Shown here one piece after another: positions 2,154-21,444 of a stretch of 35,929 nucleotides of DNA; the first letter of the stretch is position 1; every line of letters begins with the position of its first letter. The notes under the pieces are model-generated. The model had not been told where the DNA came from. It ran no database searches and saw nothing but the letters and a program-made list of their open reading frames with translations. This DNA is from Thiomonas sp. FB-6 (GTDB lineage Bacteria; Pseudomonadota; Gammaproteobacteria; Burkholderiales; Burkholderiaceae_C). Made by a program: the position numbers and the translations under genes. The stretch is taken from assembly GCF_000377645.1 (NCBI RefSeq), contig NZ_KB898506.1, forward strand, positions 1 to 35,929. The letters are read 5' to 3'.

Positions 2154-2173
2154 GCTCATCTCCAGGTTCTTGT

Positions 2174-6038: not shown

Positions 6039-6103
6039 TTCGTGCAAGGAAATAGCGTTCTATTCGGTTATCGTGCTGACGCCAGCCCGCATGGCCGCGT
6101 GCT

Positions 6104-6886: not shown

Positions 6887-6910
6887 GGCATTGCCCTTCT
6901 TGCCTCGGGT

Positions 6911-6934
6911 GCCCCGCCCCCGCGGGGGCGGGGC
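6911..6934. terminator. 24-bp perfect GC palindrome after the porin gene
   Basis: Bases 6911-6922 (gccccgcccccg) are the exact reverse complement of 6923-6934. It lies between the porin stop (6987) and the aroD start (6886). It may end or attenuate the abundant porin transcript before aroD, or protect its 3' end. No T-tract follows on the minus strand. Confidence 0.45.
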
Positions 6935-6986
6935 GCCTTGCGGCTTCAATCGTCGATGATCGGACTTCGCAACCCGCGAAAGCGGG

Positions 6987-8288
6987 TCAGAACTTGTACA
7001 TGAAGCCGACCTGCACCCCGGTGATGCGCTTGCCCTTGAGGTCGGCGGCCGGGAAGGCCTTGGTCAGCGGCGCCGAGCCCGATTGGTCGAAGGAGGCGTT
7101 GGCATCGTTGCTCAGGGTGTCGACCAGGGCGTACAGCGTGGTGGACTTGATCCCGGTGTAGTAGCTGCCCAGGGTCATGCCCTTGGCGCCGCTGTTGGCG
7201 GCGTTGCTGTTCTTGATGACGCCGTAGAGCGCCCCCACGCGCCAGGCGCTGGTCAGGTCGTAATCGGCCGAGATCTGGTAGATGTTGTAGTAGTCGTTGA
7301 TCGCCGAGGCCGTCCCGGTCAGCGGAACCCCGCCCGGATAGGCGCCCCCGATGCCGCTGAAGCCGCTGCCCGGACCGACGTTCGAACGCACATAGGTCAT
7401 GTACACCTTGCCGCGGCCGTAGTTGTAATCGGCGTAGGCGTTCTGGTATTCGCCCTTGGTGTTGTAGGTGGCACCGGCCGGCGCGTTCGCCCACAGGCCG
7501 TTGTAGCCCACGTCGAAGGGCCCCTTCACGTATTCGGCGCCCAGCTGGTAGACGGAACCGTTGCTGCCGACGGTGCTGGAATTGGCCGAACTCAAGGCGT
7601 AATGCGCCTGCAGTTGCAGGCCGTTGAACACCGGCGAGCTGTACGACAGGTCGTTGTCGAAGCGCGCCGGCACGCCGAAGGCGTTGACCACCGAACCCAG
7701 GGTGCGCGACGTGAAGTCGACCAGGCCGCCGTGGAAGAAGGCGATGGTCTCCTGGCGGCCGACCCGGAAGTCGCCGTAGGGGGTCTGCACGCCAGCCCAG
7801 GCCTGGCGGTCGAACAGGCGTCCGGCTCCCGGCTGGGCTCCGTTGGTGAAGTCCAGGCTCTGCTCCACGTCGAAGTGCATCGCATAGCCGGGCGACACCG
7901 TGTGGATGCCGGTCATGCCCAGGCGGCTGCGCAGCAGCGCGCCATCCTCGATAGCCGACAGGTTGCGGCCCGAGCTGCTGTGCATGTAGTTGGCGTACTC
8001 GTCGATGTCGCCGTAGATGGTGACCGAGTTGTCCTTGCCGCCGAACTGCAGCGGGTTGGAATTGGCCGCGGCCTTGGCAGGCGCCGCGGCCTGCGTGGCC
8101 ACCACCTTCTGCGTGGCGGCGGCCTGGGCGGCGGTGTGCGCCTGCTCGGCCTTGAGCTGCTCGACCTCCTGGGTCAGTTTCTGCAACTGGGCCTGCAGGT
8201 CCGAGAGCTGATCGGCGTGGGCCGGCAGGGCCACGGCCAACGCGCCGGCCGACAACAGGGCCGCGGGAATGAGTTTCAGGCGATGCAT
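6987..8288 (-). CDS. Outer-membrane porin, OmpC/Gram-negative trimeric type
   Basis: A 433-aa porin. Residues 1-25 form a classical signal peptide ending in PAHA|D. Residues ~26-60 form a heptad-rich stretch (LSDLQAQLQKL, VEQLKAEQ) predicted as a coiled coil, followed by an Ala-rich linker to about residue 80. The rest is beta-barrel-like, starting VTIYGDIDEY and ending in the C-terminal Phe (FMYKF) used by the BAM machinery. The N-terminal coiled coil plus linker is unusual for the common Burkholderiales porin-4 type. The start at ATG 8288 has GAGGAG upstream. The position between the ThDP enzyme and aroD genes suggests a dedicated outer-membrane channel for the pathway substrate. Confidence 0.9.
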   Translation of the reverse strand: MHRLKLIPAALLSAGALAVALPAHADQLSDLQAQLQKLTQEVEQLKAEQAHTAAQAAATQKVVATQAAAPAKAAANSNPLQFGGKDNSVTIYGDIDEYANYMHSSSGRNLSAIEDGALLRSRLGMTGIHTVSPGYAMHFDVEQSLDFTNGAQPGAGRLFDRQAWAGVQTPYGDFRVGRQETIAFFHGGLVDFTSRTLGSVVNAFGVPARFDNDLSYSSPVFNGLQLQAHYALSSANSSTVGSNGSVYQLGAEYVKGPFDVGYNGLWANAPAGATYNTKGEYQNAYADYNYGRGKVYMTYVRSNVGPGSGFSGIGGAYPGGVPLTGTASAINDYYNIYQISADYDLTSAWRVGALYGVIKNSNAANSGAKGMTLGSYYTGIKSTTLYALVDTLSNDANASFDQSGSAPLTKAFPAADLKGKRITGVQVGFMYKF

Positions 8289-8310
8289 GGTTGGTCTCCT
8301 CTGTGGGTGG

Positions 8311-8333
8311 TTTTTTTGTCCGCAAGAGCGGAC
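8311..8333 (-). promoter_or_regulatory. Hairpin plus A7 in the porin leader
   Basis: On the minus strand, gtccgc and gcggac form a 6-bp stem with a 4-nt loop (8333-8318), followed by seven A residues and then the porin ribosome-binding site. It has a run of A, not U, after the stem, so it is not an intrinsic terminator for porin-direction transcription. It could be a 5'-leader stabiliser or an Hfq/sRNA site. Confidence 0.3.
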
Positions 8334-8369
8334 GGGCTGGAAAAGCGTCAAGACGACGCGGGCAAGAAA

Positions 8370-10133
8370 TCAGTCGGTACTGACATGCGACACCCCGCCT
8401 TGCGGGGAATAGATGTCGAGGATGTTCCAGTGGCCCGAGGTCGGCACCGGGTTGTTGCGCATCGCCACGTCGACCACGAAGGGCCGCCCGGAGGCCAGCG
8501 CGCGCTGCATGACCTGCTTGAACTCGGCGGCCGATTCGACCTTGGCGCCCTCGGCGCCATAGGCGCGGGCCACGGCCGCGAAGTCCGCCTGGTAAGGTTT
8601 GCCATCCTTCTCGAACACGGTACCCAGCGTGGTGCCGAAATGCGCCTTCTGCAGCCCCGCGATGGTGCCGAAGGCGAAGTTGTTCATGACCACCCAGACC
8701 ACCGGGATGTCCTCCTCCACGGCCGTCGCCAGCATCGCGGGGTTCTGGCCGAAGCCCCCATCGCCGACCAGGGACACGACGACCCGCTCCGGGCAGGCCA
8801 GCTTCGCGCCCAGCGCCGCAGGGGCGCCGAAGCCCATCGTGGCGTAGCCGCCCGGCGTCAGGATGGAGCCCGGCGTGTACACGGGGAATTGCTGCCCCAC
8901 GCCGTTCTTGTTCCAGCCCACGTCGGTGGTGATGATGGCGTCGCGCGGAAGCACCTCGCGCACCACGGAGAGGATGCGCTCGGGCATCATCGGGAACCCA
9001 TCGTCCTCGACGAAGCCCTGGTTCGAAGCCACGAACTCCTCGCGATGCCGAGCGATGGCCGCGCGCAGCGCTTCGTCGCTCCGTCCGTCCGGAAGCATTT
9101 CCCTGGCCACGCGGTTGAGCACCGCCAGGGCCTGGCGCAGGTCCGCCACCACGCCGATCTCCGCCGGGTAGTTGCGGCCGATCTCCGAGGGGTCCACGTC
9201 GATGTGGATGAGCCGGGTGGAACCGGGAATATCGAAGGTGTACTGGCTCTCCCACGAACTGCAGTCGGCCTCGCAGAAACGCGTTCCGAGACCCAGTACC
9301 CAGTCGGCGGTACGGCAACGGTCGTTGACGAACTGGGTACCCCAGAAGCCCGTCATGCCCAGCGTGAGATCGTGATCGTCGGGCAGCACGCCCTTGCCCA
9401 TCAGGGAATGCGCCACCGGCAGGCTCAGGTGGTCGGCCAGCTTGCGCAGTTCCTCCGCGGCGTCCGCCAGGATCACGCCCCCGCCGGCGTAGATCACGGG
9501 ATTGCGAGCCTGGATCAGGGCCTCGACGATGCGCCGCGCGGTCGGGTCGTCGATGGAAGGCCTGGCGAGCTTGCGGGTGTGGCGGCTCACGCGCGCGAAC
9601 AGCGATTCGTCGATTTCCACCGAGAACATGTCCATCGGCACCGAGACCAGCACCGGCCCCGGACGCCCGCTCTCGGCCAGTTGGAAGGCCTTGTCGATGA
9701 TCTCCGGAAACAGCTCCGCGCGATCGACCCGCCAGGCGCGCTTCACGAAGGGGCGGTAGATCTCCCACTGCGCTGCGTCGGCATGCAGGTTGACTTCCTG
9801 GTGCGGGTGCTTGCCGTAGTAGTAGCTGGGCACGTCGCCGGCGATGACCACCAGGGGAATCGAGTCCAGCGCCGCATTGGCCACGCCGGTGGCGGCGTTG
9901 GTCAGCCCCGGCCCGAGATGGCTGAGCACCACCGCGGTCTGATTGCGCGCGCGGGCGTAGCCGTCGGCCGCATGCGCGGCAATCTGTTCGTGGCGGGTGT
10001 TGATGAACCGGATCGAGCTGTTCTCGAGCGCCGTCAGCACCGCGATGTTGGTGTGCCCGCACAGGCCGAAGATGTGCTTGACGCCCCGGCCTTCCAGGTA
10101 GCGCACCAGTTGGTGCGAGATCAGTTCCTTCAT
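8370..10133 (-). CDS. ThDP-dependent enzyme, acetolactate synthase/BAL/CDH-like
   Basis: A ~587-aa thiamin-diphosphate enzyme with the standard three domains: PYR (1-~175), central (~190-330) and PP (~370-540). It carries the catalytic Glu (E49 in RHEQIAAHAADGYAR) and the metal/ThDP motif starting GDGGFGQNP and ending in MNN. The position facing the thiazolium differs from acetolactate synthase: CGH27 replaces PGG, and H72 precedes GPG where Thr/Ser is usual. This His pattern recalls benzaldehyde lyase and cyclohexane-1,2-dione hydrolase. A decarboxylase, lyase or cyclic-dione hydrolase is therefore more likely than AHAS. ATG 10133 has GGAG 6 nt upstream; the adjacent ATG 10136 is an alternative. 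An upstream CoA-transferase gene suggests oxalyl-CoA decarboxylase as a rival idea. Confidence 0.85.
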   Translation of the reverse strand: MKELISHQLVRYLEGRGVKHIFGLCGHTNIAVLTALENSSIRFINTRHEQIAAHAADGYARARNQTAVVLSHLGPGLTNAATGVANAALDSIPLVVIAGDVPSYYYGKHPHQEVNLHADAAQWEIYRPFVKRAWRVDRAELFPEIIDKAFQLAESGRPGPVLVSVPMDMFSVEIDESLFARVSRHTRKLARPSIDDPTARRIVEALIQARNPVIYAGGGVILADAAEELRKLADHLSLPVAHSLMGKGVLPDDHDLTLGMTGFWGTQFVNDRCRTADWVLGLGTRFCEADCSSWESQYTFDIPGSTRLIHIDVDPSEIGRNYPAEIGVVADLRQALAVLNRVAREMLPDGRSDEALRAAIARHREEFVASNQGFVEDDGFPMMPERILSVVREVLPRDAIITTDVGWNKNGVGQQFPVYTPGSILTPGGYATMGFGAPAALGAKLACPERVVVSLVGDGGFGQNPAMLATAVEEDIPVVWVVMNNFAFGTIAGLQKAHFGTTLGTVFEKDGKPYQADFAAVARAYGAEGAKVESAAEFKQVMQRALASGRPFVVDVAMRNNPVPTSGHWNILDIYSPQGGVSHVSTD

Positions 10134-10194
10134 CATCGTCTCCTGAGGTTGTGCATGACCGCGGCCAGGCCGCGGCACAAGCTGTTCATGCGAT

Positions 10195-11469
10195 TCAGAT
10201 CACTGCCTGCTCGCGCATCGCCCCGATTTCCTTCGGCGAATAGCCCAGCGAAGCGAGAATTTCCGCGCTGTGTTCTCCCAGCCGCGGCGGCGGCGAGGCG
10301 ACGTCGGGCCGGCCGCTGTCCATGCGGAAGCCGGCTCGCACGACGTCGAAGCCCCGCTCGATGCCCGTGGCCCCGTCGAAATGCGCGAGCAGGTCGCGGT
10401 GGCGCACCTGCGGATGCGCCAGCGCGTCGGGCACGCTGAGCACCCGGCCGGCCGGCACGCCGTGCTCGGCCAGCAAGTCTTCCCATTCGCGCGCCGGCTT
10501 CGAGGCCAGCGCCTGCTCGATCTCCTGCTTCAACTCGGCGCGGTTGCGCTTTCGCGCCTCGCGCTCGGCGAAGCGCAGATCCTGTGCAAGCTCGGGCCGG
10601 CCGATCAGCCGCGCCAGCGTGACGAACTGCTCCTGGCGGTTGGCGGCGATGTTGAGCGGCCCGTCTGCCGTAGCGAAGGTTCCCGAAGGCGCCGCGGTGA
10701 AGTTCTCATTGCCCATGGCCTGCGGCTGGCGTCCGGCGATGAGAAAGTTCGACACCACCCAGCCCATGGTGACCAGCGTGGAGTCGAGCATCGATACGTC
10801 GATGAAGTCACCTCGTCCACTGCGCTCCCGGCCGGCCAGGGCGCTGGTGATGGCGAAGGCCGCGGTCAGTCCGCCGAGGGTGTCGCAGATGGGATAGCCC
10901 ACGCGCAACGGCGCACTGTGCGCGTCGCCCGTGATGCTCATCACGCCCGACAGCCCCTGCACGATCTGGTCGTAGGCGGGGGCCTTGCTCAACGGACCAT
11001 CCTGCCCGAAGCCGGAGATGGCGCAAACCACCAGCCGGGGGTTGCGCTCCCGCAGCAGTTCCTGGCCGAGTCCCAGGCGCTGCATCACGCCCGGCCGGAA
11101 ATTCTCGATCAGCACGTCCGCGGTGTCGGCCAGGCGCAGCATCGCCTGCCTGCCGGCCTCGGTCTTGAGGTCCAGCGCCAACGACTTCTTGCCCGCGTTC
11201 TGGGCAATGAAGGAGGCGCCCATGAACTCAGCGTTGAGCTGCGCGTCCGCGCCGAGCTGGCGCGCGAGGTCGCCGCGCCGCGGCTCTTCCACCTTGATCA
11301 CCTCGGCACTGAGCAGCGCCAGCTGGTAGGCGCAGAAGGGCCCGGCAAGCACATTGGTGAGGTCGAGCACCCGGATACCCTCCAGGCTTCGCGCCCTCGT
11401 GGATCCGCGCTGCGCGAGCGCGTCCGGCGATGGCTTCATCGTGTCGTCGTCCCGAAGATCGTGCTCCAC
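10195..11469 (-). CDS. CaiB/BaiF family CoA-transferase (class III)
   Basis: A 424-aa class III CoA-transferase (formyl-CoA transferase family), which moves CoA between carboxylic acids through a mixed anhydride on an Asp. That Asp is visible as D167 in APAYDQIVQGLSG. The N-terminal VLDLTNVLAGPFC and the VIENFRPGV-type segment (LIENFRPGVMQRLG) are typical. GTG 11469 is chosen because GGAG lies 8 nt upstream; ATG 11439 would remove ten residues and has a poorer site. It lies ~60 bp before the ThDP gene. In the cluster it probably activates the organic acid later cleaved by the citryl-CoA lyase-like enzyme, or supplies an acyl-CoA to the ThDP enzyme. The acid is unknown. Confidence 0.9.
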   Translation of the reverse strand: MEHDLRDDDTMKPSPDALAQRGSTRARSLEGIRVLDLTNVLAGPFCAYQLALLSAEVIKVEEPRRGDLARQLGADAQLNAEFMGASFIAQNAGKKSLALDLKTEAGRQAMLRLADTADVLIENFRPGVMQRLGLGQELLRERNPRLVVCAISGFGQDGPLSKAPAYDQIVQGLSGVMSITGDAHSAPLRVGYPICDTLGGLTAAFAITSALAGRERSGRGDFIDVSMLDSTLVTMGWVVSNFLIAGRQPQAMGNENFTAAPSGTFATADGPLNIAANRQEQFVTLARLIGRPELAQDLRFAEREARKRNRAELKQEIEQALASKPAREWEDLLAEHGVPAGRVLSVPDALAHPQVRHRDLLAHFDGATGIERGFDVVRAGFRMDSGRPDVASPPPRLGEHSAEILASLGYSPKEIGAMREQAVI

Positions 11470-11508: not shown

Positions 11509-12405
11509 TCATGCCAGTCCCGCCGGCGATGGCAGGGCCGCGGTCTTGCGCCCCAGGGTAGCCACCAGTCCGCCCGCGACCACCATCGCGATGCCCAGCA
11601 GGGTCCAGCCCGTCGGCACGTTGCCGAAGGCCCAGGCCCCGAGCACGATGACCCAGGCCACCTGCACGTAGGCCAGCGGGGCCAGGCGTGAGGCCGGCGA
11701 GGATTCGAGCGCGTGGATCATGCAAAAGTGCCCGGTGCCGGAGAACAGCCCGGCGCAGGCCAGCAAAAGCGCACCGCGCAGGTCCGTGCGCCCATGCGCG
11801 AAGGGCAGCGAGACCGCGGTGGCCACGGCGCCGACGAGCATCACCAGGAACAGGGAATTGACCGGCGTCTCGCTGGCGGTCACGTGGCGGGTCAGCGCCT
11901 GGTAGACCGCGTAGCACAGCGCCATGGCCAGCGGCAGCAGGGCCGCCGGCGTGCCGTAGCCGCCGCCCGGGCGCACGATCAGCAGCACGCCGGCGAAACC
12001 GATGCCCACCGCGAACCAGGCCGCCGCGTGCACACGCTCGTGCAGGAACAGCACGGCGATCAGGGTGAGCAGCAGAGGGTGCACGAAGCTGATCGCCTGG
12101 GCCTCGGCGATGGGCATCAGTTGCATCGCCAGCACGATGGTCAGCGTGGCGCCGGTGAGCAGCAGGCCCCGCAGGATCTGCAGCCCGGGCTGGCGCGTGG
12201 CCAGCAGCGCGCGGCCCCGCCGAGGGCCGTAGACCAGCGCGAGCAGGAGCATCGGCACGGTGTAGCGCGCGAAGGCGATCTGGTTCACTGGATAGCTGAC
12301 GGCGAGAAATTTCGACAAGGTGTCGGCGCAGGCGAACATGAGCGTGGCCGCGACCGCCAGCAGCGCGCCTCGGCGATGGCGATGACGGCGTGCGGCATGG
12401 CTCAT
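11509..12405 (-). CDS. DMT superfamily (EamA) transporter
   Basis: A 298-aa inner-membrane protein with about ten hydrophobic helices arranged as two EamA repeats (residues ~12-145 and ~155-285). The polar N-terminus is rich in His/Arg (HAARRHRHRR), as expected for a cytoplasmic end. DMT proteins of this type export metabolites or amino acids; substrates are rarely predictable. The ATG at 12405 is preceded by a run of nine G on the coding strand that serves as the Shine-Dalgarno sequence. It lies ~40 bp upstream of the CoA-transferase gene and ~60 bp downstream of the isomerase-like gene, so it is probably part of the same transcript. Confidence 0.88.
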   Translation of the reverse strand: MSHAARRHRHRRGALLAVAATLMFACADTLSKFLAVSYPVNQIAFARYTVPMLLLALVYGPRRGRALLATRQPGLQILRGLLLTGATLTIVLAMQLMPIAEAQAISFVHPLLLTLIAVLFLHERVHAAAWFAVGIGFAGVLLIVRPGGGYGTPAALLPLAMALCYAVYQALTRHVTASETPVNSLFLVMLVGAVATAVSLPFAHGRTDLRGALLLACAGLFSGTGHFCMIHALESSPASRLAPLAYVQVAWVIVLGAWAFGNVPTGWTLLGIAMVVAGGLVATLGRKTAALPSPAGLA

Positions 12406-12409
12406 CGAG

Positions 12410-12418
12410 CCCCCCCCC
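12410..12418 (-). promoter_or_regulatory. G9 homopolymer used as ribosome-binding site
   Basis: Nine C on the plus strand (nine G in the mRNA) end four bases before ATG 12405. The tract is the only Shine-Dalgarno-like sequence for the transporter. A homopolymer this long is prone to slipped-strand length changes. Confidence 0.55.
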
Positions 12419-12463
12419 GCGGGCTGCGTGCGCCCTCGTGCCGGCACATCACCGTGCCTGCGC

Positions 12464-13297
12464 TCAGGCGAAGCATCCGATCTCCTGCGCGTGCTCCTGC
12501 ACGTAGTTCTTCGCCGACTCCAGGCAGCGGAAGGCATGCTCGGCGTAGCCGAACTCTCGCGCGCGCTTGAGGTGAGGCAATTCGATCGAGTACACCGGCA
12601 CGGGCAGATGGCGCAGGATCGACGCCACGTCGATTCCGCCTTCGCCCACGTACAGCCGCTCCTCGCGAAGGATGCGCGTCATCTCCGCCCGATCGGCCGG
12701 GATGTCCGCGCAGGCATCGCAGATGTGCGCGAAGTGGAACCAGTCGCGCGGCAGTTCGTCCAGGTCCTCGGGCTTGTCGTGCGCGCGATGGAAGTGATGC
12801 ATGTCGACCATCAGGCCGGCATTGGGCTGGCGCACGGCTCGCAGCACTGCCGCGGCCCCCTGCAAGGTATTGACGCTCGAGATGGGGACGTACTCCAGGT
12901 CCACGCTCAGGCCGAAGGGCGCGGCCAGCTCGCAGATCCTGGCGAACTTCTCGGTGGCGTAGGCGATGTCGGAGGTCCAGATGCTCGAGAGCACGGCCTT
13001 GGCGCCCAGTTCCGCAGCCACCTCCATGGCCGGCAGGTACTTGGTCGGATGCATATCGTCATGCACCCGCGCGAGCTCGATGTCGTGCACTTTCATGCCC
13101 GTCTCGACCAGCGCGCGACGGGTCTGGCGCATCATCTCGGGATTGTCCGCGAGCGAGTAGTTCGGCTCGCTGGGCAGCCCCATGTAGATGAGCCTGGGGC
13201 TCACGTAGTCATAGCCGGCCCGGGCGGCGACGTACACCATTTCCGGGGTGGGGCACCCCAGCACGGTCAGATGGGCAAGGGAATATCGAATGGTCAT
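12464..13297 (-). CDS. Sugar phosphate isomerase/epimerase-like TIM-barrel protein
   Basis: A 277-aa protein of the AP-endonuclease-2/xylose-isomerase-like TIM-barrel family. This family includes IolE-type dehydratases, epimerases and 3-dehydroshikimate dehydratases. The four expected metal-ligand positions look intact: Glu in VDLEYVP, Asp in LMVDMHHF, His/Asp in FAHICDA and Glu in YSIELPH. ATG 13297 is preferred over the in-frame TTG 13303; a weak GAG lies 6 nt upstream. It is the promoter-proximal enzyme gene of the minus-strand cluster, with a palindrome at 13406-13422 about 110 bp upstream. With AroD and AroE nearby, dehydration or isomerisation of a cyclic polyol is reasonable. It is a different protein from the second TIM-barrel gene at 20542, whose metal site is degraded. 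Confidence 0.82.
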   Translation of the reverse strand: MTIRYSLAHLTVLGCPTPEMVYVAARAGYDYVSPRLIYMGLPSEPNYSLADNPEMMRQTRRALVETGMKVHDIELARVHDDMHPTKYLPAMEVAAELGAKAVLSSIWTSDIAYATEKFARICELAAPFGLSVDLEYVPISSVNTLQGAAAVLRAVRQPNAGLMVDMHHFHRAHDKPEDLDELPRDWFHFAHICDACADIPADRAEMTRILREERLYVGEGGIDVASILRHLPVPVYSIELPHLKRAREFGYAEHAFRCLESAKNYVQEHAQEIGCFA

Positions 13298-13405
13298 CGG
13301 CAACTCGTCGACAGCTGAACCCGGCGTTGCGAACCACCGGTGCGTTCACGAGGTGCTGATGCTAGAAATGCTCAAACGGACCAGCAATCTGGCCCAAGGG
13401 GTTAC

Positions 13406-13568: not shown

Positions 13569-14339
13569 TCAGAGCAGCGACAGCAGCGAATGCTCGGCCT
13601 GTCGCAGCAGCGGCAGCACGCGCGCGATCGCGGACTTGGAACTCTCGCCGCTGATGGGCAGGCTCACGCTGATCGCGCCGACGACCGCGCCCGTGCGCGA
13701 TTGCACGGGCACCGCGATGCCGCGCCGGTCCCGCTCCATCTGCTGCTCCAGGATCACGAAGCCGTCCTGGCGCGCACGGTCGATGACCGCGCGAACCTCG
13801 TCGGGACGCGTGAGGGTCATCGAGGTGTAGGCGATGAACTTCTGGCGCGCGAGCCAGGCATCCACCTCGGCCGGGCCTTGGCAGGACAGCAGGGCGATGC
13901 CCGCCGCGGCCAGGTTCGCCGGCACGCGCGCGCCCAGCATGAAACTCAAGGTCTGGAAGGTGCTGGAAACATTGCGCGCGATGAACACCAGGTCGCCGTC
14001 GTCCAGCACCCCGAAGGAGGCGGTGACGCCGCCGAGTTCGCGGCTGATCTGTTGCAGGAACGGCTGCACGGTCCGCGGCAGGCGGGCCGAGTCGAAGTAG
14101 GACCAGCCCAGACGCAGCACGCGCGGAGTGAGCCAGAACATGGTCCCGTCGCTCTCCAGGAAGCCCATGCGCCGCAGGGTCAACAGGTAACGCCGCGCCG
14201 CGGTGCGGCTCAGCCCCGTGCGCTTGGCCGCCGTCGAAGCGCTCAGGCGCGGATGCGAATCGGCGAAGGCCTCGATCACGCGCAAGCCCTTCTCGATCCC
14301 TGCCACGCCGTCTCGCTTCGAGTTCTCTTCTTCCGTCAC
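13569..14339 (-). CDS. IclR family transcriptional regulator (PcaR/PobR-like)
   Basis: A 256-aa IclR-family regulator. A winged helix-turn-helix (residues ~12-70; STAAKRTGLSRTAARRYLLTL) is followed by an effector-binding domain. The Phe/Leu-rich linker and GFVILEQQMERDRRGIAVPV are typical of the PcaU/PcaR/PobR branch, which senses aromatic or hydroaromatic acids such as protocatechuate and quinate. GTG 14339 is chosen as start because GGGAGG lies 5 nt upstream; a longer reading to 14408 lacks such a site. The gene is divergent from the AroE-like/Liv operon and upstream of the catabolic cluster, so it probably controls both. The ligand is not known. Confidence 0.92.
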   Translation of the reverse strand: MTEEENSKRDGVAGIEKGLRVIEAFADSHPRLSASTAAKRTGLSRTAARRYLLTLRRMGFLESDGTMFWLTPRVLRLGWSYFDSARLPRTVQPFLQQISRELGGVTASFGVLDDGDLVFIARNVSSTFQTLSFMLGARVPANLAAAGIALLSCQGPAEVDAWLARQKFIAYTSMTLTRPDEVRAVIDRARQDGFVILEQQMERDRRGIAVPVQSRTGAVVGAISVSLPISGESSKSAIARVLPLLRQAEHSLLSLL

Positions 14340-14359
14340 ATGGGCCTCCCAGCGCCAAA

Positions 14360-14376
14360 GTGCGCGAATAGCGCAC
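14360..14376. promoter_or_regulatory. Candidate IclR operator in divergent promoter
   Basis: A 17-bp inverted repeat, gtgcgc-gaata-gcgcac, 20 bp upstream of the IclR gene and 133 bp upstream of the AroE-like gene. It shares the TGCGC-n-AAT-n-GCGCA layout with 13406-13422. Confidence 0.5.
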
Positions 14377-14508
14377 ACTCCAGAGCGATTTTCACGCGCC
14401 CTCTCCAAAACCGCAATAGATTGCGGCCCTGCGCCTGACTAGGATGCACGGACACAAGACCCAACAGAGTCCGGCCGTCGGCCCGGGCTCCAACGAGCGA
14501 GACAAATC

Positions 14509-15387
14509 TTGATCATTACCGGAACCACGCAGGTCTACGCGATCGCGGCCGATCCTGTCGCACAGGTGCGAGCACCCGAAGTCTTCAACCACATCTTCAA
14601 CCGCCACGGCATCGATGCCGTCATGGTCCCGATGCAGGTCGGCGCCTCCGAGGTGATCGACTGGACACGCGAATTCTTTCGCGCGCGAAATGCCGGCGGC
14701 GTGATCCTGTCGATCCCCAACAAGTCCGCGGTCATGAGCGCTCTGGCGCGCTGCGACGACCTGGGCCGCACGATGGGCGCCGTCAACGTGATCCGCCGCC
14801 TCCCGGACGGCAACCTCGAGGGTGCGCTGTTCGACGGAGAGGGCTTCGTGCTCGGCATGGAGGCCGACGACCTGGCCTACAAGGCGCGGCATGCGCTGAT
14901 CCTCGGCGCCGGGGGCGCCGGCTCGGCGATCTCGGCCTCGCTGGCGCGCCGCGGCGTGGCTTCCATCACCCTGTACGACCCGGTACCCGGCAAGGCGGCG
15001 GAGGTCGCCGAGCGCGTGCAGGCAGCTTTCGGCATTCCCTGCTCCGCCGCGCAGAGCAACTCCCCCAAGGGTTTCGGGCTCGTCATCAATGCCTCGCCGC
15101 TAGGGCTCGGTCCGCGGGACGCATTTCCGTTCGATCCTGCACAACTCAGCCCTGGCGCCACGGTGTGCGACATCCTGATGAAAAACCAGCCCACCTCGCT
15201 GCTGCGCACGGTGCGCGCGCTGGGGGGCGCGGCGCAGCCCGGCTTCGAGATGCTGATCCAGCAGATCCCGTTGCACCTGGACTTCTTCGGCCACGTGGAG
15301 CCCGCGCGCCGCGTGCAGCAGGAACTCGGGCTGCTGCGCGAACTGCTCTACCCCAAGGCGCTGCGCGAGTCCTGGGCCCAGGCATGA
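14509..15387 (+). CDS. Atypical shikimate dehydrogenase family protein
   Basis: A 292-aa AroE-superfamily oxidoreductase. It keeps the catalytic Lys (K72 in SIPNK), the catalytic Asp (D109 in LFDGEGF) and the GAGGAGSA nucleotide loop. Two substrate motifs are altered: the SRSP carboxylate clamp is replaced by QVRAP, and TIPHK by SIPNK. The substrate is therefore probably not shikimate itself but another hydroxylated cyclic compound; NAD(P)-linked oxidation is expected. The start is TTG 14509, as no in-frame ATG occurs before residue 39 and the N-terminal beta strand would be lost. It leads the plus-strand operon with livHMGF about 70 bp downstream, tying the importer to this dehydrogenase. 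Confidence 0.85.
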   Translation: MIITGTTQVYAIAADPVAQVRAPEVFNHIFNRHGIDAVMVPMQVGASEVIDWTREFFRARNAGGVILSIPNKSAVMSALARCDDLGRTMGAVNVIRRLPDGNLEGALFDGEGFVLGMEADDLAYKARHALILGAGGAGSAISASLARRGVASITLYDPVPGKAAEVAERVQAAFGIPCSAAQSNSPKGFGLVINASPLGLGPRDAFPFDPAQLSPGATVCDILMKNQPTSLLRTVRALGGAAQPGFEMLIQQIPLHLDFFGHVEPARRVQQELGLLRELLYPKALRESWAQA

Positions 15388-15458: not shown

Positions 15459-16337
15459 ATGTTCACCTTTCTCCAACTGATCGTCTCGGGGCTGGCCACC
15501 GGGGCCATCTATGCCCTCGTGGCCCTGGGCTTCACACTGCTCTGGCAGGCTTCGGGCACGATCAATTTCGCGCAGGGCGAGTTCGTCATGCTGCCCGCGT
15601 TCTCGATGCTGTTCTGCCTCGACACGCTGCACATGCCGATCTGGATCGCCTTCCTGGTCACTTGCGTACTTTCGATGGTCGTGCTGGGGCAGGGCTTCAA
15701 CCGCATCGTCGTGGCTCCGCTGCGGCGCCACGGGGTGATCCCGCTGGTCATCGCGACCCTGGGCCTGTCCACGGGGCTGCAATCGACCGTGAAGGCGGTG
15801 TTCGGGGCGCAGCCCCTGCCCTTTCCGAGCATCTTCCCCTCGTCGCTGATCCATCTGGGGCCTTTGACCCTTTCCTGGTCCGACGTGGGCACGCTGGCGG
15901 TCGCCGGCATCATGGTCTTCGGCATGCAGATCCTGCTCGACCGCACGCTCACCGGGCGAGCGATGCAGGCGGTGGCGCAGAACACCGAAGGGGCTCAAAT
16001 CCTGGGCATCAACGTCAAGCGCATGGTCCTGCTGACCTTCCTGGTAAACGCCTTGCTGGGCGTGGTGGCCGCGCTGCTGGTCACGCCCACCTACCTGGCG
16101 ACCTTCGACATGGGCAACACGCTGAGCCTGAAGGCGTTCTACGCAGCGATCATCGGAGGCTTCAATGAAACGCGTGGCGCGCTGCTCGGGGGCTTGCTGA
16201 TCGGCGTGATGGAAAACCTGGTCGGCAGTTACATCTCGCCCAACTACAAGGACGGCGTCGCGCTGATGCTGTTCATGGTCGTCATCATGTTTCGTCCGCA
16301 AGGCTTGCTGGGCAAGGTCGAAGAGCGAAAAGTATGA
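15459..16337 (+). CDS. livH: Branched-chain amino acid-type ABC permease LivH
   Basis: A 292-aa inner-membrane permease of the LivH family with about eight hydrophobic helices. It opens with FLQLIVSGLATGAIYALVAL and contains the NFAQGEF segment typical of LivH. It pairs with LivM to form the translocation path of a HAAT-family importer. These importers carry branched-chain amino acids, amides, urea or aromatic/hydroaromatic acids. GAGGA lies 10 nt upstream of the ATG. The stop overlaps the livM start by 4 bp. Because the operon starts with a dehydrogenase and is controlled by an IclR regulator, a carboxylic acid substrate is more likely than leucine. Confidence 0.93.
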   Translation: MFTFLQLIVSGLATGAIYALVALGFTLLWQASGTINFAQGEFVMLPAFSMLFCLDTLHMPIWIAFLVTCVLSMVVLGQGFNRIVVAPLRRHGVIPLVIATLGLSTGLQSTVKAVFGAQPLPFPSIFPSSLIHLGPLTLSWSDVGTLAVAGIMVFGMQILLDRTLTGRAMQAVAQNTEGAQILGINVKRMVLLTFLVNALLGVVAALLVTPTYLATFDMGNTLSLKAFYAAIIGGFNETRGALLGGLLIGVMENLVGSYISPNYKDGVALMLFMVVIMFRPQGLLGKVEERKV

Positions 16338-17272
16338 ACATCCAATCTCCAAAGCACATCGCGCTGGCACTGGGCATTCTCGCGCTGGTTCTGCTTCCGC
16401 TGGGGCTCAAGGGCTACGGCATCTACCTGCTGTCGCTCTGGTGCGTGTACACCATGGCCAACTTCGGGCTCAACCTGGTGGTCGGCTACGCGGGCCTGAT
16501 GTCCCTGTGCCAGGCCGGCTTCCTCGGGGTCGGCGCCTACACCGCGGGCATCCTGATCAACATGGGCGTTTCCTTCTGGTTCGTGCTGCCCCTGGCGGCG
16601 CTGAACTGCTTCCTGCTGGGCCTGCTCATCGGCTTTCCGGCGCTGCGCGTGCAGCACCACTACCTGGCCTTCGCCACCCTCGGTTTCAACGTGCTGATCT
16701 TCCTGTTCATGCGCAACGAGCAGTGGCTGACCGGCGGGCCGCTGGGCATTCCCAACGTTCCGCGCCCCTCGCTGTTCGGCCTGTCGCTCGACCCGGCGGT
16801 TCCGTTCTACTACCTGGTGCTGGTGTTCACGCTGCTGCTGGCCGGGGCCATGGCCTGGTTGCTGCGATCGCCGTGGGGCCGCGCCTTCACCGCCTTGCGC
16901 GACAACCCGATCCGCGCGGAGAGCCTGGGCGTGAACATCACCCTGTACACCTTGCTGGCCTTCGCCATCGGCGCGGCCTTCGCGGGCGTGGCCGGCGTGT
17001 TCTACGCCACGCTGGTGGAGTTCATCGACCCGAACCCCTTCACCTACTCGGCGTCACTGATGCTCCTGCTGGCGGTGATCGCCGGCGGTGCCGGGCGTTT
17101 CTACGGCCCGGTGGTCGGCGCGGCGATCGTCGTCCTGCTTCCCGAGTGGCTACGCTTCGCCCAAAGCTGGTACCTGGTGATCTTCGGATTCGCGATCGTG
17201 GCCCTCATGATCTGGCTGCCCGGCGGCGTGCTGGCCCTGCCGGAGCGCCTGGGGCTGGGAGAGAAGTCATGA
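16334..17272 (+). CDS. livM: Branched-chain amino acid-type ABC permease LivM
   Basis: A 312-aa inner-membrane permease of the LivM family with about nine or ten helices. NFGLNLVVGYAGLMSLCQAGFLGVGAY (abridged core NLVVGYAGLMS) and the EAA-like cytoplasmic loop SPWGRAFTALRDNPIRAE (core ALRDNPIRAESLG) are the family marks. It overlaps livH by ATGA and livG by ATGA, giving translational coupling. It is the partner of LivH in the importer; nothing unusual is seen in length or motifs. Confidence 0.93.
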   Translation: MNIQSPKHIALALGILALVLLPLGLKGYGIYLLSLWCVYTMANFGLNLVVGYAGLMSLCQAGFLGVGAYTAGILINMGVSFWFVLPLAALNCFLLGLLIGFPALRVQHHYLAFATLGFNVLIFLFMRNEQWLTGGPLGIPNVPRPSLFGLSLDPAVPFYYLVLVFTLLLAGAMAWLLRSPWGRAFTALRDNPIRAESLGVNITLYTLLAFAIGAAFAGVAGVFYATLVEFIDPNPFTYSASLMLLLAVIAGGAGRFYGPVVGAAIVVLLPEWLRFAQSWYLVIFGFAIVALMIWLPGGVLALPERLGLGEKS

Positions 17273-18024
17273 GCGCCACGCACCCATCCTTCCTGTCCGT
17301 GCGCGATCTGCGCAAGCACTACGGATCGATCAAGGCCGTCGACGGCATCAGCTTCGACGTCGGCCCCAGCGAGATCGTCGGAGTGATCGGTCCGAACGGC
17401 TGCGGAAAGACCACGCTGTTCAACTCCATCCTGGGCCAGATCGAGCCGACCTCGGGCTCGGTGAGCTTCTGCGAGGAGCCGATCACCGGCAAGTCTCCGC
17501 TGGATCTGTCGCGCCGGGGCATCGGCCGCACCTTCCAGAGCCTGCAGGTCTTCGGCAAGCTCTCGGTACGCGACAACCTGCTCATCGCCGGGCAGGAATT
17601 CGTAGGCACGATGGGCCGCCGGCTGTGGATGCGCCCCGACGCGGGCCTGGGCGAGCGGGCCGATGAACTGCTCGAACTCTTCCACTTGAAGAAGGTCGCG
17701 CACAAGGAGGCCGGCTGCCTGGCCTACGGCCAGCAGAAGCTCATCGACGTGGCCATGGCCTTCATGCCCGCCCCCAGGCTGGTACTGCTCGACGAGCCCT
17801 GCGCGGGAATCAACGCCCACATGGTGGACGAACTGCGCGAGATCCTGGTCACCCTGAACTCCACGCACGGGGGCAGCTACGTGGTCATCGAGCACAACAT
17901 GGATTTCATCATGAAACTGTGCCCGCACATCATCTGCATGCTCGAAGGCCGCCTGCTGGCCGAGGGCTCGCCGGAGCAGATCCGGGCCGACAAGCACGTG
18001 CTGGAGGCTTATCTTGGACACTGA
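17269..18024 (+). CDS. livG: ABC transporter ATP-binding protein LivG
   Basis: A 251-aa ATPase of the LivG type. Visible are Walker A (GPNGCGKTT), the Q-loop (GRTFQSL), the signature LAYGQQK in place of LSYGQQR, Walker B (LVLLDEP) followed by CAGIN, and the H-loop (VIEHNMDF). It energises LivHM together with LivF. It overlaps livM by 4 bp, and its 3' end overlaps livF by 11 bp. Confidence 0.94.
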   Translation: MSATHPSFLSVRDLRKHYGSIKAVDGISFDVGPSEIVGVIGPNGCGKTTLFNSILGQIEPTSGSVSFCEEPITGKSPLDLSRRGIGRTFQSLQVFGKLSVRDNLLIAGQEFVGTMGRRLWMRPDAGLGERADELLELFHLKKVAHKEAGCLAYGQQKLIDVAMAFMPAPRLVLLDEPCAGINAHMVDELREILVTLNSTHGGSYVVIEHNMDFIMKLCPHIICMLEGRLLAEGSPEQIRADKHVLEAYLGH

Positions 18025-18748
18025 AGCACTGATCGAATTTGACCAGGTCGAGGCCGGCTACGGCAATCTGCGGGTCCTGCACAAGGCCAGCTTTCGTGCC
18101 CGCGAGGGACTGATCACGCTGCTTACCGGCGCCAACGGTGCCGGCAAGTCCACCGCGATGAAGACCTTGTTCGGGGTCATCCGGCCCACGTCCGGCGACG
18201 TGCGCCTGCGCGGTCGGTCCATCGTCGGGCGCACGCCGCGAGACATGCTCGAGCTGGGCATGTCCTACGTCCCGCAGGACCGCAGCCTGTTTCCAAGCCT
18301 GAGCGTCTATCACAACCTCGAGCTCGGCGGCATCATGCTGCCGCGCAAACAGCTGCGTCCGCGCATCGAGGAGGTGCTGGAGCGCTTTCCGCGCCTGCGC
18401 GAACGGGTTCAGAGCCAGGCCTCGACCTTGTCCGGAGGAGAACGCAAGCAACTCGAGATTGCCCGCGCGCTGTTGCTGCGCCCGGACATCCTGCTGGTCG
18501 ACGAGCCCTCGATCGGGCTGTCTCCGAAGATCGTGGGCGAGGTGTTCGACCTGCTCGGGCGCCTGGCCGCCGACGGCAAGACCATCCTCGTGGTCGAACA
18601 GAACGTCCGCAGCGCGCTCAAGGTCGCCCACCACGCCTACGGCATGGAACTCGGACGCATCGTGCTGGACTTGCCGGCCGACAGCATCCTGGACAACCCC
18701 GAGTTCAACCGCCTGCTGCTGGGCGGCCATGTCGCCGACGCCGCATGA
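18014..18748 (+). CDS. livF: ABC transporter ATP-binding protein LivF
   Basis: A 244-aa LivF-type ATPase with Walker A (GANGAGKST), signature (LSGGERKQLEIARAL), Walker B (LLVDEPS) and VEQNV. It starts at TTG 18014 inside the end of livG, with GGAGG 7 nt upstream; no ATG is available without losing the first beta strands. It completes the HMGF set. No livK/livJ-type periplasmic binding protein gene is present in the operon or elsewhere in the window, so the binding protein must be encoded elsewhere. Confidence 0.94.
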   Translation: MDTEALIEFDQVEAGYGNLRVLHKASFRAREGLITLLTGANGAGKSTAMKTLFGVIRPTSGDVRLRGRSIVGRTPRDMLELGMSYVPQDRSLFPSLSVYHNLELGGIMLPRKQLRPRIEEVLERFPRLRERVQSQASTLSGGERKQLEIARALLLRPDILLVDEPSIGLSPKIVGEVFDLLGRLAADGKTILVVEQNVRSALKVAHHAYGMELGRIVLDLPADSILDNPEFNRLLLGGHVADAA

Positions 18749-18770: not shown

Positions 18771-19478
18771 CTACGCCAGCGGGCCGAACACCGCCGCGTT
18801 TCCCCCGAACGCCGCCGTCAGTTCCGCGGCGTTCTCTGCCAGCGAGCGCACGACTGCTTCGCGCGCCAGGGTCTCGATCCGGTAGCGCGGGCCCGACAGG
18901 CTGAGGCAGCCGACCACGGCCATGCCCTGCCCGAACACCGGGCAGGCGTAGGCCGCGGTTTCCGGATCGCGTTCTCCGAACGATGCGGCGAAATACTCTT
19001 TCCGGATCTGGTCGTAGCGTCCTCCCCGCTCGCCGCCGAAGGCCAGCAGCACCCGGCCGGCGGCTCCGACGTGCAGATCCAGGGTGTCCCCCTCGCGCAC
19101 CGTATCGGTCACCGAGCGGCGCCCCTGGATGCGGAAGGTGCATATGCGGCTGTCCCCCTCGCGCACATAGAACGACGCGCTTTCATTCCACTCGTCCACG
19201 ATTTTCTGCAGAATGGGAAGCACGTGGTCGCTGCTGCGGAACTGGCGCTGGTACAGGCTCGCCAGGAACAGGGGCTTGTATCCGATCTGATACAGCCCGT
19301 CGCTTCCACGCTTCAGGAAACCGAATTTCTCCAGCGAATCCGCGAGGCGCAGTATGGTGCTCTTGTAATAACCCGTGCGCCTCGAGATCTCGGCCAAGGT
19401 GAGGCCGCGATCATCGCTGCGGAATGATTCGAGGATCCGCAATGCGCGATCGACGGCAGCGACTCCGAGAGTGCTCAT
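18771..19478 (-). CDS. IclR family transcriptional regulator
   Basis: A 235-aa IclR regulator. The winged HTH (residues ~5-65) includes LTLAEISRRTGYYKSTILRL, and the C-terminal GAF-like effector domain includes VGAAGRVLLAF and ACPVFGQGMAVVGCLS. It differs from the IclR protein at 13569. No good ribosome-binding site precedes ATG 19478. It is divergent from the three-gene VOC/TIM/thioredoxin operon starting at 19676, which it probably controls through the 197-bp gap. No convincing operator could be picked out in that gap. Confidence 0.92.
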   Translation of the reverse strand: MSTLGVAAVDRALRILESFRSDDRGLTLAEISRRTGYYKSTILRLADSLEKFGFLKRGSDGLYQIGYKPLFLASLYQRQFRSSDHVLPILQKIVDEWNESASFYVREGDSRICTFRIQGRRSVTDTVREGDTLDLHVGAAGRVLLAFGGERGGRYDQIRKEYFAASFGERDPETAAYACPVFGQGMAVVGCLSLSGPRYRIETLAREAVVRSLAENAAELTAAFGGNAAVFGPLA

Positions 19479-19675
19479 GTCAGGGATTTCACGGGGGAAT
19501 GAATTTTCCGCGGCGCCGTACGTGTAGCATGAGGCTGCGGGGAATGGCCGAACGAGCGGCTTCTGGATATCTTCGGGCCTTTTTTCAAGGGCTTGCTAAT
19601 GTCTCGTCTCATGGATTTCTGGTTTTTATTCCAGCCTGCTTCGAATATTTTGCTTGAACCTTGCGAGAATATCAA

Positions 19676-20542
19676 ATGGCAGAATCGATGGAACGCGCAA
19701 CCGGCGGCAACGGGAATATTCTCGGCATGGACGGCCTGGAATTCGTGGAATTCGCCACGGCGAATCCTGAATCCTTCGGCGCCGTACTGGAGAAACTGGG
19801 CTTCGTGCGCATCGCCCGGCATCGCTCGCGCCGCGTGTTCCTGTATCGACAGGGCCCCATGAACCTCGTGGTCGACGCCGATCCGCAGGCCCTGGCCAGC
19901 AGCACCATACGCCCCGACAGCGTTTCGCTGGACGCACTAGCGTTTCGCGTGACAGACGCCCGCAGAGCATACCAACACCTGATGGAATGCGGGGCCTGGC
20001 CCATTCCCAGCCGCGCCGAGGCCATGGAGCTGAACATTCCCGGGGTGCACGGCGTGGGCGACTCGATCCTGTACCTGGTGGACCGCTACCACGGCATATC
20101 CATCTACGACGTGGATTTCGACTTCGAGCAAGGCGTGGACCCGAGCCCACCCGCGCGGCATGGACTGCAGTTCCACTCGGCGGTGCAGACCATCGAGACC
20201 TGGCGCAGCGACGTCTGGACCGATTTCTACGGCCAGCTGTTCGGCTTCACCCCGCGCGCGGGAGGCGACGATATCGATACGGCTTGCGCCCTGCTGGCCA
20301 GCCCCTGCGGGAAGTTCGGCATCGAACTGCTGGAACTCCCCGAGGATCTGGCCCACGACCAGCACTGGGACGAAGGCTTCGCGCGCCTGAATTTCAGCAC
20401 CACGGATCTGGCGGGCACGGTGGCATCGCTGCGGGAGCAGGGAATCGACATCGACCCCCGCAGCACCTCGACCGAGGCGCTCACGCGCAGCGTCGCCAAG
20501 GGCGTGCAGTTCGGCTTCATCGCACGTCCGGGACAGTCGTGA
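19676..20542 (+). CDS. HPPD/QuiC-C-like two-domain VOC protein, metal site lost
   Basis: A 288-aa protein of two vicinal-oxygen-chelate modules (residues ~17-155 and ~160-285), most like the HPPD-like C-terminal half of QuiC. GLEFVEFA and RHRSRRVFLYRQGPMNLVV match the first module of that family. HPPD uses two His and one Glu for iron. Here H167 (LQFHSAV) remains, but the second His position reads Arg (FAR237LNF) and the C-terminal Glu position reads Gly/Phe (VQFGFIAR). Dioxygenase activity is therefore unlikely. ATG 19676 has GAGA 7 nt upstream; a TTG at 19661 is in frame. The stop overlaps the next start as TGATG. A binding or scaffold role for its neighbour is possible; function unknown. 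Confidence 0.8.
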   Translation: MAESMERATGGNGNILGMDGLEFVEFATANPESFGAVLEKLGFVRIARHRSRRVFLYRQGPMNLVVDADPQALASSTIRPDSVSLDALAFRVTDARRAYQHLMECGAWPIPSRAEAMELNIPGVHGVGDSILYLVDRYHGISIYDVDFDFEQGVDPSPPARHGLQFHSAVQTIETWRSDVWTDFYGQLFGFTPRAGGDDIDTACALLASPCGKFGIELLELPEDLAHDQHWDEGFARLNFSTTDLAGTVASLREQGIDIDPRSTSTEALTRSVAKGVQFGFIARPGQS

Positions 20543-21444
20543 TGCAGGCCTACGTCCACCTCGATCCCGTGGCCCTTCCGGGGCCGCTCGAAAGCAAGCT
20601 GGAGCATGCGCGTGCGGCTGGCTTCACACAGATCATGCTCTGGGGCGCCGACCTGGCCAACCATCCGCTCGGCTTCGACCACGCGGTGCGCCTGGTGCGC
20701 TCCAGCGGGCTGCGCGTGGCCGGGCTCCAACTGCTGCGCGACTACGAGGGGCGGGGACCGGCGCGCCACAGCTACAAGATCGACATCGCGAAGGAATCGC
20801 TGCGCATGTGCCGCGCGGTGGGCGCGCCCTTGCTGATCGTGACCTCGAGCACGGAAGTCCCCGCGCCCGATGCGCGCGACGACATCTCGGATCTGCGCAA
20901 GCTGGCCAACCTCGCCGTGCCCTTGAAGGTGCGCATCGGCTACAAGGCGGTGCCGTGGGCGCACCGGGTGCGCACCGCGGCCGATGCCTGGGCCACCGTG
21001 AGCTCGGTGGAGCATGCGAACTTCCACCTGGTGCTCGACACCCTGCACATTCTGATGACCGGCTCGGACCTGCAATTCCTGGAGGACGTCGATCCCGAAC
21101 GCATCGCGCTGGTCCAGCTCGCCGATTTCAGCGAAGCGGCCATCGTCTCCGATCCCGACCGGCGCACGGCGGCCAACCATGGGCGGGTGTTCCCTGGCGA
21201 CGGCGGACACAGCGCGCGACTGATCGAGATGATCCGCGCCATCGACCGCAGCGGCTACCGCGGCGACTACAGCCTGCTGGTCATGAACGACGACTACCGC
21301 CAGCTGCCTGCGACCGTGGTCGCCGAACATGCGCGACGTTCGGTCAACTGGCTCAGCAACCAGGTGCTGCGCCGCGCGCTGCAGCCGCGCCTGACACCCA
21401 GGGCGGGCGCACCCGCATCCACACCCGGCAAGGAATGCCCTTGA
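20542..21444 (+). CDS. QuiC-like TIM-barrel protein with altered metal ligands
   Basis: A 300-aa sugar-phosphate-isomerase-type TIM barrel whose best match is the N-terminal domain of QuiC, the 3-dehydroshikimate dehydratase (QLLRDYEG resembles QPFRDFEG; DTLHIL resembles DSFHTL). From memory, P. putida QuiC1 binds its metal through E134, D165, Q191 and E239. The aligned residues here are K135 (GYKAVPW), D166, Q192 and L246 (SLLVMND), so both Glu are gone while Asp, Gln and the adjacent H169 remain. Codons are unambiguous (aag, ctg). The gene is coupled to the VOC gene (TGATG) and to the next gene (TGATG). Either a metal-free or differently metallated enzyme, or a pseudoenzyme. Confidence 0.8.
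   Translation: MQAYVHLDPVALPGPLESKLEHARAAGFTQIMLWGADLANHPLGFDHAVRLVRSSGLRVAGLQLLRDYEGRGPARHSYKIDIAKESLRMCRAVGAPLLIVTSSTEVPAPDARDDISDLRKLANLAVPLKVRIGYKAVPWAHRVRTAADAWATVSSVEHANFHLVLDTLHILMTGSDLQFLEDVDPERIALVQLADFSEAAIVSDPDRRTAANHGRVFPGDGGHSARLIEMIRAIDRSGYRGDYSLLVMNDDYRQLPATVVAEHARRSVNWLSNQVLRRALQPRLTPRAGAPASTPGKECP

Follow-up and report, generated by a model that had tools for sequence, protein, structure and literature searches.

The VOC-TIM gene pair and its occurrence

The window analysed here, a stretch of 35,929 nucleotides from Thiomonas sp. FB-6 (contig NZ_KB898506.1, positions 1 to 35,929), carries two adjacent genes related to the two halves of the 3-dehydroshikimate dehydratase QuiC: one for a VOC protein resembling 4-hydroxyphenylpyruvate dioxygenase (HPPD) and, downstream, one for a TIM-barrel protein. 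Ancestry, residues, selection and gene linkage were computed, and from these we infer loss of the metal, the chemistry and the substrate; the pair probably no longer carries out metal-dependent dehydroshikimate dehydration and has been kept for something else. Both genes are separate intact frames coupled by a TGATG overlap (TGA at 20540-20542, ATG at 20542-20544), as an earlier note on this DNA had described. Profile matches assign the VOC protein to the N-terminal family of HPPD, with a glyoxalase domain in addition, and the TIM protein to the xylose isomerase-like barrels, where it passes PF01261 (72.3 bits against a gathering score of 31.1). The VOC protein stays under the cut-off of TIGR01263 for 4-hydroxyphenylpyruvate dioxygenase (83 bits, cut-off 277). 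Neither protein reaches the QuiC model NF042435 (TIM 120.5 and VOC 86.4 bits, cut-off 1200), a score that a split protein can hardly attain. The one-chain layout of QuiC, with the TIM barrel preceding the HPPD-like domain, is replaced in the window by two genes with the VOC gene first.

The earlier note regarded this split and reversed order as unusual, yet it is ordinary in the bacterial family. Relatives of the TIM protein (E <= 1e-10) occur in 159 of 399 family genomes sampled in a single draw, and a split-type TIM gene, picked by E-value (below 1e-39) and counted by hand, in 134 of the 399. The remaining 25 genomes have weaker matches only, from 9e-23 to 3e-35, the range of single-chain QuiC; they were not inspected singly, and one (G291) may hold a fragment of a split gene. 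In 183 of 189 census rows the TIM gene is preceded on its own strand by a VOC gene, which in 180 of these is no more than 200 bases away, and it is this frequency, together with the 134 split-type genomes, that makes the arrangement an ordinary one. Five of the six rows lacking an upstream VOC gene are at contig ends, and the sixth is the TIM locus L094 (G020), where no VOC match was found in the census. Census rows count one locus repeatedly: the 183 VOC rows shrink to 179 after a length filter and to 140 distinct sequences, and the TIM set with all four ligands (see below) comprises 152 rows, of which 128 are distinct. Starts of the open reading frames in these alignments were chosen by rule.

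Computation shows that the window pair descends from this two-gene, VOC-then-TIM system: the VOC gene precedes the TIM gene, the neighbours are shared, and the TIM proteins fall into one tree. Upstream of many family pairs, as in the window, stand an IclR gene, a gene resembling shikimate dehydrogenase and a LivHMGF transporter; in other loci a TRAP transporter and a dehydrogenase-like gene take their place. The ligand-complete pairs of the family share order and adjacency with the window and, in many loci, the transporter, regulator and dehydrogenase neighbours, at about 40-53% TIM identity. No characterised two-gene VOC-TIM pair was found among the literature matches listed.

Active-site residues of the TIM and VOC proteins

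Aligned to QuiC1 (PDB 5hmq), the window TIM protein has K135 at Glu134 and L246 at Glu239 and keeps D166, H169 and Q192, confirming the earlier reading; instead of the QuiC set E/D/Q/E it has K135/D166/Q192/L246. We take Glu134, Asp165, Gln191 and Glu239 to be the metal ligands of QuiC1. PMC7442255 gives the QuiC1/QsuB active site as Arg64, Leu97, Glu134, Leu136, His168, Asp165, Gln191, Ser206, Arg210 and Glu239. Five of these (R64, D165, H168, Q191 and R210) are matched by R66, D166, H169, Q192 and R215 in the window, and R66, H169 and R215 are unchanged across the genus. By sequence the two folds are those of the two-domain dehydratase QuiC1/QsuB, from which the window differs in having two chains with the VOC protein first, replacements at E134 and E239, and no HPPD-like triad.

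The loss of ligands is not a property of split genes. All four ligands (E135-D166-Q192-E246) are present in 124 of the 134 split-type genomes, nine are altered, and one (G281, reading EDQ-) ends before column 246. We thus reject splitting or reversal as the cause of ligand loss, a link drawn by the earlier note, which had itself named intact homologues in the same order as speaking against it. The altered sets are KDQL (G000), QGQE (G017), RDQW (G022), KDQS (G052 and G246), KDQN (G314), QDRS (G168), KDQD (G194) and QDRD (G389), with a carboxylate (Asp) still at 246 in G194 and G389. In the trees they form five lineages, namely the window's genus, g52, g92 and G017 in one tree and G022 in another, there on a very long branch (4.29) with unsure placement. 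Together these genomes offer a natural series in which metal loss can be studied, from the 124 ligand-complete ones through two relaxed lineages and two cases of a single genome each to one genus that became stable again with Lys in the site.

Within the window's genus the TIM gene occurs in 10 of 28 genomes, and K135 and L246 are present in all ten, the window included (nine were read in the column analysis and the K of the tenth, G404, separately). The K/L pattern is thus conserved in the genus and not family-wide. These proteins form one clade (support 100/100) with a long stem and short tips. At 63 columns that are >= 98% fixed among the 128 distinct ligand-complete proteins, the genus keeps 42, has newly fixed 12 and varies at nine; seven of the 12 are columns 135, 138, 140, 210, 212, 246 and 248, while R66, D166, H169, Q192 and R215 belong to the 42 unchanged ones. 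The retention of these five residues would also suit a dehydratase that is still metal-dependent through other ligands. Lys and Leu in place of both Glu argue against this, with the newly fixed carboxylate S105E at most a conceivable substitute, and we consider such an enzyme improbable. The four of these 63 columns that differ in G017 (E135Q, D166G, R212E and R215G) all belong to the site or adjoin it; with the site defined afterwards as ten of the columns, the chance of such a clustering is 3.5e-4. Separately, the loci L218-L223 (G052, G168, G246, G314, G194 and G389) represent independent TIM ligand losses in two other genera, with a relaxed TIM protein and a more constrained VOC protein.

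By our alignment, the window VOC protein reads S168/R237/G280 at the HPPD His/His/Glu columns, and H167, the neighbour of S168, is not conserved. The 2-His-1-Glu triad is therefore absent, with all three positions altered: Arg at the second His and Gly (or Phe) at the Glu had been noted before, whereas the change at the first His had been missed. R237 is found in 178 of 179 VOC rows and G or S at column 168 likewise in 178 of 179, the sole exception at both being Azoarcus KH32C with H168 and D237. Of the 179 rows, 160 retain Glu280 and 19 have Gly instead; all 19 come from the window's genus, in which one sub-branch (L037/L049/L092) still has E280. Hence the His losses are family-wide and only the Glu loss belongs to the window's genus. 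Since the His columns changed in nearly all split VOC proteins, the VOC site was largely lost earlier than the TIM site. The earlier description of both sites as dismantled runs together two events of different age.

Selection on the pair

Ratios of non-synonymous to synonymous substitution rates (dN/dS) against the window within its genus are 0.12-0.22 for both TIM and VOC, and among four genus members 0.11-0.24 (TIM) and 0.11-0.19 (VOC), with dS close to saturation in comparisons involving L092. Ligand-complete pairs within three other genera have 0.06-0.18 (TIM) and 0.07-0.17 (VOC), while the altered lineages reach 0.36-0.55 (TIM) and 0.23-0.36 (VOC) in g52 and 0.39 (TIM) and 0.13 (VOC) in g92. 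In the window's genus the TIM protein has reached a new state under constraint, whereas those of g52 and g92 are relaxed. Window neighbours range from 0.02-0.10 (IclR2), 0.03-0.08 (TPP enzyme) and 0.04-0.09 (TIM2) to 0.11-0.20 (CoA-transferase) and 0.18-0.30 (Trx4 and SBP11).

Decay of a leftover ancestral dehydratase would be in line with the relaxation in g52 and g92 and with the faster evolution of the pair compared to the thiamine pyrophosphate (TPP) enzyme, TIM2 and most of LivHMGF. In the window's genus, decay is rejected by dN/dS of 0.11-0.24, far from about 1, by new residues that became fixed (K135/L246 in 10 of 10) and by the lack of internal stops in the aligned genus copies; as an explanation of the pair it is largely refuted and very improbable. 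The earlier argument for a kept new function stands as far as the keeping is concerned, and a new function is one candidate beside a pseudoenzyme role.

Gene neighbourhood and the TPP module

The pair is surrounded by genes whose families suggest quinate or shikimate metabolism (Table 1). The putative LivM and LivG of the transporter are named by position; a LivHMGF operon upstream is also common to many ligand-complete pairs. Of the dedicated promoter and regulator proposed earlier, the former found no support: a simple scan yielded no sigma-70 consensus site on the plus strand and one on the minus strand, with 0.4 expected by chance. The IclR gene adjoins VOC in the window, L031, L032 and L034 and is not matched beside VOC in L035-L037, where VOC follows LivF. 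Relatives of IclR1 (55% in Azoarcus KH32C, 51-57% in G116, G174, G201 and G387) head a TPP/CoA-transferase/lyase module in other bacteria. About 100 extra bases, partly T-rich, lie between IclR1 and VOC (window about 19500-19640) and are missing from the close relatives L031, L032 and L034. A Thioredoxin_4 (DsbA-like) gene (21444-22004, plus strand) overlaps the TIM stop; it adjoins the pair in L031-L034 and is unmatched beside it in L035-L038.

Table 1. Genes of the VOC-TIM locus and its surroundings in the window.
Feature	Coordinates	Strand	Evidence
VOC (HPPD-like) partner	19676..20542	+	288 aa; PF14696 147.7 bits, PF00903 29.4 bits
TIM (QuiC N-domain-like) partner	20542..21444	+	300 aa; PF01261 72.3 bits; NF042435 120.5 bits (cut-off 1200)
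IclR1 regulator	18771..19478	-	PF01614, PF09339
LivHMGF-type ABC transporter	15459..18748	+	PF02653 (15459-16337), ABC_tran (18014-18748)
SDH2, shikimate dehydrogenase-like	14509..15387	+	PF08501 49.4 bits; TIGR00507 114 bits, under cut-off 200.2
IclR regulator 2 (IclR2)	13569..14408	-	PF01614 88.3 bits
TIM2, second AP_endonuc_2 barrel	12464..13303	-	PF01261 52.9 bits; E/D/H/E at ligand columns (alignment)
EamA-like transporter	11509..12537	-	PF00892 93.4 bits; listed frame overlaps TIM2, shorter start 12339 likely
Class III CoA-transferase	10195..11469	-	PF02515 409.7 bits
TPP enzyme (acetolactate synthase-like)	8370..10178	-	three TPP_enzyme domains; PDB matches
Porin	6987..8351	-	PF13609 113.9 bits
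Type I 3-dehydroquinase (AroD)	6104..6949	-	PF01487 219.6 bits
Aldehyde dehydrogenase	4506..6047	-	PF00171 594 bits
CoA-acylating aldehyde dehydrogenase-like (SauS-like)	3038..4462	-	NF047625 473.9 bits, under cut-off 600
Citryl-CoA lyase-like protein	2174..3028	-	NF004864 440 bits (above cut-off 261); 6hxp match
Shikimate dehydrogenase SDH1	1317..2177	-	NF001312 347.5 bits (cut-off 295), scored on 1317-2159
Amidohydrolase 2 (lactonase-like)	455..1282	-	PF04909 130.4 bits; NF042924 86.4 bits, under cut-off 500

On the minus strand, the genes between 13303 and 455 follow the same order in G399, G407, G413 and G417. Within the genus, the TPP gene and TIM2 occur in the same nine of 28 genomes, all of them among the ten with the K/L TIM protein, and neither was found in any of the 18 genomes without a TIM gene; the tenth K/L genome, G404, has no TPP or TIM2 match but is 82% complete with a cut contig. 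Beyond the genus the TPP gene is rare: at E <= 1e-150 it turned up in six of the 399 genomes of the family, one of them that of the window, and a class-wide sample of 369 genomes gave at this threshold no other match than the window's gene. Plasmid matches (E <= 1e-100) comprise one close case, Azoarcus KH32C with 81%, and three below 60%.

In G116, G174, G201 and G387 the TPP gene is accompanied by an aldehyde dehydrogenase, a CoA-transferase, a lyase and the IclR1 relative. The plasmid of Azoarcus sp. KH32C likewise has a VOC-TIM pair beside a TPP enzyme (81%), CoA-transferase (70%), citryl-CoA lyase (64%), shikimate dehydrogenase and AroD (56%), although the pair itself differs from that of the window (E135, D246 and Q169 in TIM, H168 and D237 in VOC). 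A dehydroquinase lies beside the module in the window, KH32C, G017 and G387, and a gene resembling shikimate dehydrogenase is close by in the window, KH32C and G116, as well as in Nonomuraea and Streptomyces at 32-37% identity. Near the modules of G201 and G174 the window's dehydroquinase and dehydrogenases were unmatched, in a test that is blind to type II dehydroquinase. A lyase-like and a TPP protein share one open frame of 896 codons in G174 (L106:13811-16501), a possible fusion that would support a joint pathway. G017 has partial matches to AroD (66%) and the CoA-transferase (69%) upstream of LivHMGF and its altered pair (L112:8379-9442), perhaps remnants of the module. Two findings speak against a strict link between ligand loss and the TPP module: G022, g52 and g92 lost ligands and gave no TPP-gene match (E <= 1e-150), and G116 is a counterexample of the opposite kind.

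A possible quinate/shikimate route without aromatisation

Known quinate and shikimate catabolism leads to protocatechuate, which is then cleaved by an oxygenase. In the inositol route (IolE/IolD) and with cyclohexane-1,2-dione hydrolase, dehydration by a TIM barrel yields a dione whose ring is opened by a TPP enzyme. The substrate that citryl-CoA lyase splits, in turn, is a thioester carrying a tertiary alcohol next to a carboxylate. The window cluster fits a non-aromatising route of similar logic to acetyl-CoA and 2-oxoglutarate via homocitrate, in which every step and substrate is predicted from gene families. TIM2 would dehydrate 3-dehydroquinate across C4-C5 in the manner of IolE, giving a ring 3,4-dione; the TPP enzyme would hydrolyse the C3-C4 bond, opening the ring to homocitrate semialdehyde; oxidation and CoA transfer would lead to homocitryl-CoA; and the citryl-CoA lyase-like enzyme, for which the tertiary alcohol at C1 of dehydroquinate appears well suited, could release acetyl-CoA and 2-oxoglutarate. 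The carbon balance is C7 = C2 + C5, and the porin, EamA-like transporter and amidohydrolase are left without a catalytic step. With E/D/H/E and dN/dS of 0.04-0.09, TIM2 is a better candidate for the dehydration than the pair. The 18.8-kb stretch of KH32C gave no match to TIM2, and there the pair (E/D/Q/D) may itself do this. The literature search gave nothing on such a route among the matches listed, most subscription journals being outside its coverage.

What might the K/L pair contribute? Because it keeps the substrate arginines and the His, we lean towards a metal-free enzyme (or a ligand-binding subunit) acting on a related substrate in a quinate/shikimate cluster not aimed at protocatechuate, a tentative choice. 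On the branch to the genus, K135 and L246 replaced Glu at two of the four ligand positions of the TIM protein, and the new state then became fixed. R66 and R215 could still hold the substrate carboxylate and H169 move a proton, while the ammonium group of K135 would sit in place of the divalent cation and polarise the 3-oxo group of 3-dehydroquinate or 3-dehydroshikimate or else form a Schiff base with it; a role as structural or lid partner would fall to the VOC protein. The complete proposal, i.e. an oxygen-independent, non-aromatising quinate/shikimate route with the K/L pair as its metal-free member and Lys135 replacing the metal ion, is possible and at present rather doubtful. If true, it would mean a new metabolism for abundant plant compounds without an aromatic intermediate.

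Several observations weigh against this proposal. Ligands were also lost in four other lineages, in some together with R66, D166 or R215; the pair can therefore survive the ruin of its site, and this speaks for a non-catalytic role. The TPP module does not require the ligand change, given that G116 combines it with a ligand-complete pair and KH32C with the conservative E246D. Moreover, the pair evolves at about the pace of the CoA-transferase, faster than the TPP enzyme and TIM2. The assignment of the two aldehyde dehydrogenases goes no further than the family, and in the PDB the TPP protein scores highest against acetolactate synthases (271 bits), ahead of cyclohexane-1,2-dione hydrolase (2pgn, 197 bits). 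Further, loss of protocatechuate cleavage was considered as a cause of the ligand change, and the intradiol dioxygenase PF00775 was not found in G000 and was found in three of 28 genus genomes; LigB-family genes are present in 27 of 28, with four in G000, so protocatechuate may still be cleaved.

Other dehydratases and a pseudoenzyme role

A fused QuiC gene is present in seven of nine altered genomes versus 10 of 125 others (Fisher 4.6e-6), a test that ignores kinship (the seven come from three genera), counts G281 among the 125 and concerns correlations formed after seeing the data. A close TIM2 (66-100%) was found in just two of 76 genomes searched, 73 of which are from the 134, and these two, G000 and G017, are the remaining altered genomes. 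No altered lineage thus lacks both a fused QuiC and a close TIM2. Such a second dehydratase could have released the pair from its old task, after which the window's genus would have reused it and other lineages let the barrel relax.

The same data would suit a pseudoenzyme, nearly as likely as the metal-free enzyme, in which the other dehydratase took over and the pair was kept for a structural, ligand-sensing or partner-stabilising role, e.g. binding TIM2 or a dehydrogenase. That ligand loss arose in five lineages and that all four changes of conserved columns in G017 concern the site and its surroundings agree with such a role. The HPPD-like domain of QsuB has been proposed to promote oligomerisation (PMC7442255). 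On the other hand, R66, D166, H169, Q192 and R215 are invariant in the genus under low dN/dS, unlike the relaxed TIM proteins of g52 and g92, and weaker TIM2-like barrels are common (30 of the 76 genomes). Fused QuiC also occurs beside intact pairs, and because ten intact genomes carry it, a spare dehydratase alone is insufficient for ligand loss.

Fused QuiC and split pairs were also encountered in close proximity. In L093 (G022), a heavily altered VOC-TIM pair closely follows a fused QuiC gene that is itself intact. In L051 (Massilia putida plasmid) and L056 (G044), a split pair with all its ligands is close to a fused QuiC and hence may be something other than a simple functional duplicate of it.

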